The notes beneath the pieces were generated by a model. The model worked only from the letters and a program-made list of their open reading frames with translations, searched no databases and was not told the origin of the DNA. Made by a program: the position numbers and the translations under genes. From Volvox africanus (Eukaryota > Chlorophyta > Chlorophyceae > Chlamydomonadales > Volvocaceae), in the NCBI GenBank assembly GCA_030268105.1, contig BSDZ01000008.1:1860001-1924000 (forward strand): a stretch of 64,000 nucleotides of DNA, in the 5' to 3' direction. Shown here one piece after another: positions 23,203 through 62,036 of the stretch (position 1 is its first letter; every line of letters starts with the position of its first letter).

Positions 23203-26200
23203 TTATATCTCCCCGCCCACAGCCGCCGCTGGGCCGTGAAGTGAAGCTTCGCTCATATTACCATTTGATCTTTGCCTGCGGACGTTGGTGCCACCCATGT
23301 TCATAGATGATGGATGCACTAACCCGTTACTGCCGGACACTCCGCCCCAGATGGTGGAATTCACAAAGATCATACAGGAGCTGGCGATCGCCAACGTAAG
23401 GCCCAGGATGCCAAAGCAGATCCCCGTGATTGCAATTACCTGCAGGATCACGATCTTCTTCTCCATGTGATCTAAAATACCTTTTAGATTGGCCGGCACG
23501 TCTGTAAGGTTGTTGTAGTTAGCGGAGGAGCTATTGGTGCTGTTGGCGGCTTTGGCGCTCACTTTGTTCTGCTGTGCGCTGTAGGCCTTGAAGAAATCTG
23601 CGAAGCTAGCAGCGTTGGTGTTCTCGAAGCTGCCGGCGAAGGAGCTGATCACGTAGTCATTGCTGCCCTGACCTGATTTCAACATAGGGAGTAGGCAATA
23701 AGGGACGTGTATTGTCGGGGTAGGTCAGGGAAAACGTGTAGGGAAGATAAGGCGCGTGTTGTGAAGCGTATAACACTGATGGTGGCAAATAATGTCATGG
23801 ACGCAGGTCAGGATATCCGCATATTTCTTGCCTGCGGGTAACACGCTGCCGCTTTCGAAGGTCCACATTTTTGCGCGAGTGTCAATTTGCAGCAACGGAA
23901 GAGCCCGCTCTATGGCGTACTGTTGTACCTCCGATGGCAGCGGGCTGAATCCTGCCGCCGGCGCGATCACGTTCTGAGCATAGCTGCCTAACATAAACGT
24001 GATGAAGGTTTGCAGCAGCGATCCTGTATCACCCCTGCTTGTGAGGTCAGTCCGTACGAACATGAAGGGCATAGCCACGATGGGGAAGGTGGCGGCGCCT
24101 GGCTGGTTGAGGACAGAGACGCCGGCGAAGGACTGCGTGGGGCTCTTGGGCCACCCATCGGACTTTAAGAGCGTAGATGCAGCTCCAGGAACGTCGCCAG
24201 TCTGCCAACAGGACAAGTAGATAGCTAAGACGATAGGTGGGAAGGCGGGAAAAGGCTAAGAACCATTTTGCAGTAATAAATGATGAGACGGCCAGGTTCG
24301 AAGTGACAAACAAGAGTTGGTGTCCCCTTCCTTGAAGCCTGAAAAATGGCGGGGTCTTCCCCAATGTCTGTACCGTGTGATAGCGCATGATAATGTAGGT
24401 AAGAGTTTAGGCGTTGAGGTCTACAGGCGCGGCTTGACAAGTTGCACAAGTCTAGGTTTGATAGAGATAATGAATCCATCACTTCCTCCTAAATTATTAG
24501 CTTTAATCACTTGTTCTTGTTGTGATATTCGGTCAGACTTCTTCATGTGTTCATTGGTTGAACGCATTGTCAGGAACGTACTGCGGCTGAATTTCAAATG
24601 TGAAGGGTCTTATGTACGATCCTTCACCAAGTCGCTACTTATTCCCCGAAGCTGGCTTGCTTCTTTAGCTGTTTGTAACGATCTATTGTTTGCCCGGACT
24701 TTGGAGTGTCCTTGTGGCTGGAGGCATAGTGGCAGCTCGCTTGTCCAGCTTGTGCTGAACTGGACCTTTCTCAGCTGTTGCGACGACAGTTTTCACAACA
24801 GGTTATGAGCCCCGCGTGACGCGGTGGCCGTTGTTATAGGACTTCGCTTGTCCTGAGTTGTTTTGAGTTTTGTGAAAGTTGAATTTACCGCCATGTCGCT
24901 TTCAAGGGAGTACGCCAAGGAGCTCTCTTCGAGCAACACCAGGAGCTGGTTCCACAAAATGGAATCAGTTCTAGACTTCGATGGTTATGGCGACTACATT
25001 TCGCCTACGTTCGTCATGCCTGCGGTGGGCGACGCGAACTACGCGAAGGAAAAGGAGATGGTGAGGAAGGCTCGAGCTGCCATTACTTTTCATCTTGATC
25101 CAGCAACAAATGCAAATGAAATTGCGTCTACTACTGGGTTCCTGGGAGGCAGACGAAGGAGGAGGAGGAATCGAAGCGAACGAGCGAGATGGGTAATTGG
25201 GGTGAGCAAAGACGAGAGGGAGAGGAGGGAGCTTGGAAGGCGGATGCCTATCGGAAGCCCTTCGGAGACGTGAACAGATGGCCAACAGGGACTGTGCGGA
25301 AGTGGATGATCGTGTATGGGTGAGCAGGCCCATGTTGGTGGAGCCGTAAATAACCAACGAAGGGGTGGGAGAGCGAAAAGCAAGGCTGCTATACGTGCCA
25401 TCCAAAACTCGTGTAGCAGCCTTGCTTTCCTTTATCTTCCCCTCTTCCTCTCTCTCTCTCACACACACATACACAGACAGACACACATGCATGGCAGGGC
25501 GGGTCCCAGTCTCTCAGCCCTGCTCAATGAATTCACGTCATCTCTAATTCCTTACATAACACACGGCCCCGACCCCGTCCAAGAGCGGGCCAAAGACCCT
25601 CAACAGGTAGAGGGCAGGGGTGCTGATGGAAATGTTGAGCGGTATAAGGCTCGCCTGGTCGCAAAAGGAATTACACAAAAGGAAGGAGTTGATTTTGGGG
25701 AGGTTTTTCACCCCTGTTGGGAAGTATGCCAGCTTTCGAGCTTTGTTGGCTTCTCGAGCTTCATCAGCTTGACATCAAGACTGCGTTTTTGCATGGTGAG
25801 CTAGAAGAGGAAGCGTACACTGAGCAGCCACCCGGTTATAAGTTGAGTGGTCCTAATGTAGTGTGCAAGTAACGTCGGGCTTTGTATGGCCTTCGCCAGA
25901 CCCCTCGTGCCTGGTATATTCGTTTGCGCAAGGAGCTGGAGAGCATGGGTTTCAAGCCATCTCTGGCTGACCCTGGCTAATTTGTGAAAATCGAAAATGG
26001 TGAGCCAGTCTACGTTCTTGTTTACGTTGACGATTTGCTGTTGGCGTGTAAGTCTCTGGCAGTGATTGGGCAGGTGAAGGCCCAGCTGTTACGTGCGTTT
26101 GCAATGCAAGATCTGGGGGAGACCCGGTTTTATCTGGGTTTAGAAATTGAGCGCGACCGGGCTGCCCGGACCATCTTAGTCACTCAAAGGCGGTATATCT

Positions 26201-62036: not shown

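Follow-up and report, generated by a model that had tools for sequence, protein, structure and literature searches.

Two kinds of eukaryotic receptor, the class C G-protein-coupled receptors (GPCRs) and the ionotropic glutamate receptors, share a layout in which an extracellular flytrap domain is joined through a linker to a membrane domain. Here we describe two adjoining, divergently oriented genes of the alga Volvox africanus, called A and B, that lie within a 64,000-nucleotide stretch of contig BSDZ01000008.1 (positions 1,860,001 to 1,924,000, forward strand); this whole stretch is referred to as the window, and positions are counted from its first letter unless they carry a contig prefix or are said to be those of the contig. 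The predicted product of B has the receptor layout just outlined. Its residues 38–345 match the LivJ-, urea- and amino-acid-binding type-I periplasmic proteins (PF13458), but unlike them it has this domain fused to cysteine-rich repeats and a TRP-like membrane domain; the membrane part in turn covers profile positions 251–413 of the 426 in the TRP family PF06011, which we take to be fungal Flc/Pkd2-like, but the match is limited to the later part of the profile and B adds the flytrap ectodomain. The closest described relative of A is the bacterial phosphate-binding protein PstS (PF12849; PDB 2z22, 1ixh), with which the second domain of A aligns along most of its length and whose contacts it retains; A differs from PstS in having two tandem domains, one of them degenerate, together with a eukaryotic membrane anchor and many introns.

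For microalgae, section 12 of a 2024 review (PMC11528361) sets out intracellular SPX-domain sensing together with PSR1 and names no sensor outside the cell, and a passage of PMC8318260 counts 21 TRP candidates in Chlamydomonas reinhardtii. Neither A nor B is named in the titles or abstract openings among the literature matches listed, and searches on PstS in Chlamydomonas, on Cre01.g043250 and on TRP with a binding protein found nothing. We regard A and B as uncharacterised proteins and the pair as a candidate outside-cell chemical sensor, with a predicted phosphate site in A, a flytrap fused to a TRP-like membrane part in B, and an adjacency of the two genes that recurs in related species and in a second copy within V. 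africanus.

Two solute-binding folds at one locus

A first-pass annotation of this DNA had proposed a head-to-head gene pair whose starts lie about 2 kb apart and whose products both use bacterial solute-binding folds outside the cell. Exon-by-exon modelling bears out the arrangement: both genes can be modelled with consistent phases and splice sites (three introns, one in A and two in B, have GC donors), their ATG codons are separated by 1,979 bp, and Pfam places a bacterial solute-binding fold, predicted to be outside the cell, in each protein.

Gene A, whose ATG lies at 34853 and whose stop codon lies at 23203, has the parts first claimed for it: a signal peptide (judged by eye, as was that of B), two PstS-like stretches matching PF12849 (PBP_like_2; E = 1.7e-37), a family present in 10 of 10 A relatives, and by hydropathy just one strong membrane helix, at residues 887–905; a borderline segment at 318–336 (1.64) falls inside domain 1. 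When an A profile built from these ten relatives was compared with solved structures, its best match was the PstS structure 2z22 (E = 3.2e-21), over domain 2. The phosphate contacts of PstS, which we take to be S38, D56, R135, S139, G140 and T141, all have identical equivalents in domain 2 in the 2z22 alignment, and these are kept in all 12 rows examined (the window copy, the second copy and the ten relatives); at a further contact, T10, a serine stands instead in the 11 rows having the motif, as placed by eye. Domain 1 fails the same contact test, above all at D56 and R135, whose equivalents, also placed by eye, read E and E/D in every one of the 11 rows that cover them, and its best PDB match when it is compared alone with solved PstS reaches only E = 0.027. 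Given six contacts kept in domain 2 and two lost in domain 1, the alignments point to a credible phosphate site in domain 2 but to none in domain 1.

Beyond its helix, A ends in a predicted cytosolic tail. In 11 of 12 rows this tail has a basic [RK]-x-x-S motif, in the form VRR-x-x-S or VRK-x-x-S, and in ten of them arginine stands at position −3; the motif would fit a site for a basic-directed kinase on the cytosolic side. The bearing of this tail is on what A might do once it holds phosphate. With PstS-type contacts intact in domain 2 and no signalling domain found in A by the Pfam scan, the protein could be a scavenger rather than a sensor, trapping phosphate at the surface and passing it to ordinary transporters; its anchoring in the membrane and the conservation of its cytosolic [RK]-x-x-S tail suggest regulation or signalling instead, and we consider the scavenger somewhat unlikely.

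Gene B encodes 1461 residues from the ATG at 36833, with no internal stop. The LivJ-type domain, the cysteine-rich region and the membrane helices (seven clear, up to nine in our analysis) that the first-pass annotation had assigned to it are upheld; its end at 62036 is not. Relatives from Volvox carteri and Astrephomene placed extra exons at 56801–56848, 60050–60162 and 61609–61664, the last of which is the final exon inside the window, and these displace the end at 57092 given by our first model; in the corrected model exon 14 starts at 50949. Two more exons lie beyond the window, at 64589–64726 and 65285–66235 in window numbering, so that the gene runs on past 62036 to 66235.

Within the first 1027 residues of B, PF13458 (Peripla_BP_6) matches residues 38–345 with E = 2.6e-14 (54.1 bits against a cut-off of 31.7; 57 bits against the same cut-off when the N-terminal 448 residues are scanned alone), and PF07699 (Ephrin_rec_like) matches in two stretches (4.2e-14), beside a DUF7630-like repeat that scores below its cut-off. 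The membrane part matches PF06011 at residues 840–1002 (E = 1.6e-7; 30.3–31 bits against a cut-off of 28.5). Among seven relatives of B (E ≤ 0.01), PF07699 and DUF7630 are each matched in six, PF06011 in five, PF13458 in three and NCD3G in two, counts that include gene models lacking one end and some lacking the N-terminus. Hydropathy gives seven peaks of at least 1.6 between residues 608 and 998; an eighth, at 1.35, is weak because the background of the ectodomain itself reaches 1.45, and a low-confidence model of a B relative has about nine long helices in its membrane part. For the conserved, predicted cytosolic domain that follows, the full-length scan returned no significant Pfam match (best, DUF7893 at E = 0.2). 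A Foldseek search with the same low-confidence model, to which we give little weight, returned type-I binding proteins first, with LIVBP/UrtA among the best folds, and UrtA is also the nearest solved ectodomain to B by sequence (E = 0.1). The ligand class that this fold would imply—an amino acid, an amide or urea—is a guess, since it draws on a sequence match at E = 0.1 and a model whose mean predicted local distance difference test (pLDDT) score is 43.8.

The order of flytrap, cysteine-rich linker and helices would also suit a class C GPCR-like receptor that is not a channel. Seven clear helices would be in keeping with a GPCR as well; the two relatives that match NCD3G, a cysteine-rich domain of class C GPCRs, do so weakly (best E = 0.0012); and class C GPCR structures appear among the weak Foldseek matches. 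Yet B has no match to 7tm_3 at E ≤ 1, a negative to be read with the fact that few matches above about 0.1 pass the HMMER filters, and the matches listed for it include no pore family of glutamate receptors, whereas PF06011 is matched both in the window protein and in those five relatives. With 7tm_3 absent, PF06011 present and the helix count indecisive, a class C GPCR is not the best reading of B, and we think it very unlikely.

Table 1. Positions of the two genes, their parts and associated features. Positions are those of the window except for the second copy, given in contig coordinates.
Feature	Position	Strand	Details
Gene A	23203..34853	minus	15 exons, 969 residues, consistent phases (exon-by-exon model)
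Gene A, exons 1–9	30139..34853	minus	residues 1–443: signal peptide and degenerate PstS-like domain 1
Gene A, exons 10–14	23832..29446	minus	residues 444–814: PstS-like domain 2
Gene A, exon 15	23203..23672	minus	residues 814–969: membrane helix 887–905 and predicted cytosolic tail
Gene A, intron 13	24202..27519		minus-strand intron, site of a degraded copia-like retroelement that lies on the plus strand, opposite to A
Intergenic spacer	34854..36832		ATG to ATG, 1,979 bp
Gene B	36833..64000 in window, to 66235 (G000:C8:1926235)	plus	23 exons, 21 inside the window
Gene B, exons 1–7	36944..41290	plus	LivJ-type Peripla_BP_6 (PF13458), residues 38–345
Gene B, exons 8–11	42690..48662	plus	cysteine-rich, two Ephrin_rec_like and a DUF7630-like repeat, about residues 454–612
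Gene B, exons 11–18	48638..56510	plus	membrane domain, seven clear and up to nine helices (hydropathy, PF06011)
Gene B, exons 19–21	56801..61664	plus	start of conserved, predicted cytosolic domain, continuing in exons 22–23
Second head-to-head copy of the A/B pair	G000:C8:1975911-2024000	A minus, B plus	

Conservation and duplication of the pair

Our protein searches each scored the roughly 8,000 candidates sharing most words with the query, and absences from their results mean little. They returned at least ten relatives of A at 55–90% identity and at least six of B at 51–73%; the B alignment, searched as a profile, yielded three more proteins, namely the N-terminal half of B from Chlamydomonas schloesseri and two distant matches to the cysteine-rich region. 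In V. carteri, VOLCADRAFT_99334 (A) and VOLCADRAFT_99335 (B) are respectively 62% and 73% identical to the window proteins. Names given to the volvocine relatives are hypothetical or domain-based, and the window genome differs from theirs in holding two copies of the pair.

Both partners were found in five named species, in which adjacency was read from locus tags and not from orientation. The tags adjoin in three of them: V. carteri (99334/99335), Gonium (3g281 for A, 3g282 for B) and C. schloesseri, where 006328 and 006329 are two halves of B and 006330 is A. In the last, the N-terminal half of B sits between its C-terminal half and A, so that the start of B faces A if numbering follows position. 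Tetrabaena, whose two matches are both on contigs sized 236,997, is probably a fourth species with an adjacent pair; in Pleodorina the A and B matches carry different assembly prefixes. A was returned without B from Chlamydomonas incerta, Edaphochlamys and V. africanus as well as C. reinhardtii, and B without A from Astrephomene. A tree of 12 A rows did not separate the two copies from the V. africanus protein. Elsewhere in the window's genome, a different contig has what may be a distant gene in minus orientation, carrying two PstS-like stretches (G000:C15:627727-634696).

The second pair lies on the same contig, some 93 kb further downstream, with A2 starting at 1988338 (minus strand) and B2 at 1990195 (plus strand) in contig coordinates. 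Both of its genes are open, its spacer measures 1,856 bp and B2 runs for 1749 residues to its stop. The copies agree at 896 of 969 aligned residues in A and 1371 of 1461 in B, and the ratio of non-synonymous to synonymous substitution between them (dN/dS, Nei–Gojobori) is 0.364 for A and 0.283 for B, rising to near 0.8 in the tail of B. On average, then, the copies have been under purifying selection, and a pseudogene reading of the window pair was rejected on its open frames and on these ratios (0.36 and 0.28). The tail of B1 is 288 residues shorter than that of B2, and a dispersed repeat of about 104 bp in the last B1 exon (G000:C8:1926231-1926334) coincides with the B1 stop.

Compared at the DNA level, the two copies align in their exons and not in most of their introns, and a 4.8-kb tract over the start of B, 98.8% identical, looks like gene conversion. 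For the 23 kb of the window that precede the end of A, the sole matches near the second copy (at least 200 bp, E ≤ 1e-20) come from a short dispersed repeat; of the open frames listed for the 50 kb that separate the copies, the 14 longest resemble retroelements or simple repeats by eye. Since the flank shows a repeat only and the frames between the copies are of this kind, the duplication took essentially A and B.

The low dN/dS of B also bears on whether its ectodomain binds anything. The LivJ-type domain might bind no ligand and serve assembly, as amino-terminal domains do in certain glutamate receptors, the channel answering something else, and the cysteine-rich repeats of B do resemble those of the mastigoneme-like Mst1, a structural protein. 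Values of 0.23 over exons 1–7 and 0.18 over the next 43 codons tell against such a role, although the tract looks gene-converted and the counts are small; we judge an assembly role unlikely.

The degraded retroelement in A intron 13 (Table 1) includes an RVT_2 fragment in the open reading frame at 25310–25804 (E = 1.6e-4; 21.8 bits, below the Pfam cut-off of 31.6). Intronic sequence of A at 32662–32948 holds an ATCT tetranucleotide array of 72 units with a 98% match. Between the copies, at G000:C8:1932457-1957448, there are near-identical (95–99%) repeats with long open frames that by eye resemble long interspersed nuclear elements.

A proposed surface receptor and ligand-gated channel

We tentatively favour, at somewhat less than an even chance, a reading in which B is a ligand-gated TRP-like surface channel and A a surface phosphate-binding receptor. 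The LivJ-type Venus-flytrap domain of B would lie outside the cell and close on a small solute; the cysteine-rich stalk would relay the closure to the TRP-type (PF06011) membrane domain, which might then admit cations such as Ca2+, and the conserved cytosolic domain would couple the protein to the cell. A, in turn, would be a single-pass surface protein whose domain 2 binds phosphate or a similar oxyanion, whose domain 1 may be a degenerate spacer or dimerisation unit, and whose short tail carries the kinase-type motif. Acting as a sensor, A would depend on a partner, since neither a kinase nor a channel forms part of it, and B is the obvious neighbour. We infer surface location, ligand binding, channel activity and cooperation between A and B from these features, cooperation being the weakest step.

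The first-pass annotation had gone on to propose that the two proteins are co-regulated and form or feed one nutrient-sensing system, and had looked to conserved pairing in related species. That pairing is found, through locus-tag adjacency, in three species and probably a fourth, and with the pair both conserved and co-duplicated the interpretation is partly supported; co-regulation and a joint nutrient-sensing system stay at the level of hypothesis.

The spacer aligns well with that of the second copy only in 201 bp by the B ATG (36631–36831; 99.5% identity), 97 bp near the A ATG (34867–34963; 90%) and a 78-bp patch (35417–35494; 88%), two more matches of 60–68 bp standing at about 71%. This pattern would fit a core promoter for each gene, not a single bidirectional promoter under conservation. 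The sequence GNATATNC, which we take to be a phosphate-response element, occurs once in the window spacer and not at all in the second, against 0.28 per kb in the region; a phosphate-response promoter shared by A and B was rejected, as the element is not enriched.

Several observations weigh against the receptor-and-channel reading. The spacers of the two copies differ over most of their length, and conserved neighbours are in any case common in volvocine genomes, where synteny is wide. The PF06011 score of B is barely above its cut-off, with one relative exactly at 28.5, and the AlphaFold models, one relative for each protein, are poor (mean pLDDT 43.8 for B and 36.2 for A). A scan of the full 1461 residues of B does not list PF13458, which we take as an effect of the long low-complexity tail on the HMMER filters. 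The window copy of A departs from its relatives at 14 of 303 columns that are invariant among them, the second copy at 6, and two of the window changes, D665A and N668S, alter a motif in which all ten relatives and copy 2 have retained D and N. Lastly, the relevant part of Pivato et al. 2025 (PMC12050392) reports for C. reinhardtii no change in cytosolic or chloroplast Ca2+ on resupply of phosphate or ammonium, as read with the YC3.6 indicator, for which its authors allow limited sensitivity; C. reinhardtii has an A-type protein, and a B homologue was not returned there. Diatoms do show a Ca2+ signal for phosphate, according to passages of PMC12050392 and PMC13187674.

A and B might instead be unrelated surface proteins, each acting alone and kept as neighbours by conserved volvocine gene order. 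Besides the unconserved spacer, the surroundings of A point this way. An upstream open reading frame at 14378–15250 matches pheophorbide a oxygenase (PaO, E = 1.6e-19) and the VanA C-terminal domain; by eye it resembles a chlorophyllide a oxygenase and is a likely synteny anchor with C. reinhardtii, whose chlorophyllide oxygenase is, we presume, Cre01.g043350, a number close to that of the A homologue CHLRE_01g043250. With this frame near A, and on that presumed number, the block looks syntenic with C. reinhardtii. A has also been duplicated elsewhere: the C. schloesseri protein HYH02_006351 groups with A of C. reinhardtii, apart from HYH02_006330. Opposed to this is the duplication on the window's contig, which holds both genes and of which the 23 kb before the end of A show nothing beyond the dispersed repeat. 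We give separate neighbours a substantial prospect, approaching an even one.

Returning to the reading of B as a ligand-gated channel and A as a phosphate receptor, its most ambitious form would be a single A–B complex in which the PstS-type receptor reads phosphate, the flytrap–TRP protein reads a nitrogenous solute and the output is a cation signal. We hold this to be distinctly improbable; if true, the complex would be a volvocine outside-cell nutrient sensor made from two bacterial binding-protein folds.

Short of such a complex, a membrane-anchored PstS protein with an intact predicted phosphate site, standing beside a flytrap–TRP protein, supplies two concrete candidate genes. The flytrap–TRP architecture of B would, if the reading is true, parallel that of class C GPCRs and glutamate receptors; and if B conducts on ligand binding, it would represent a further wiring of a bacterial binding-protein fold to a eukaryotic membrane signal, joining those two receptor classes as the existing cases.

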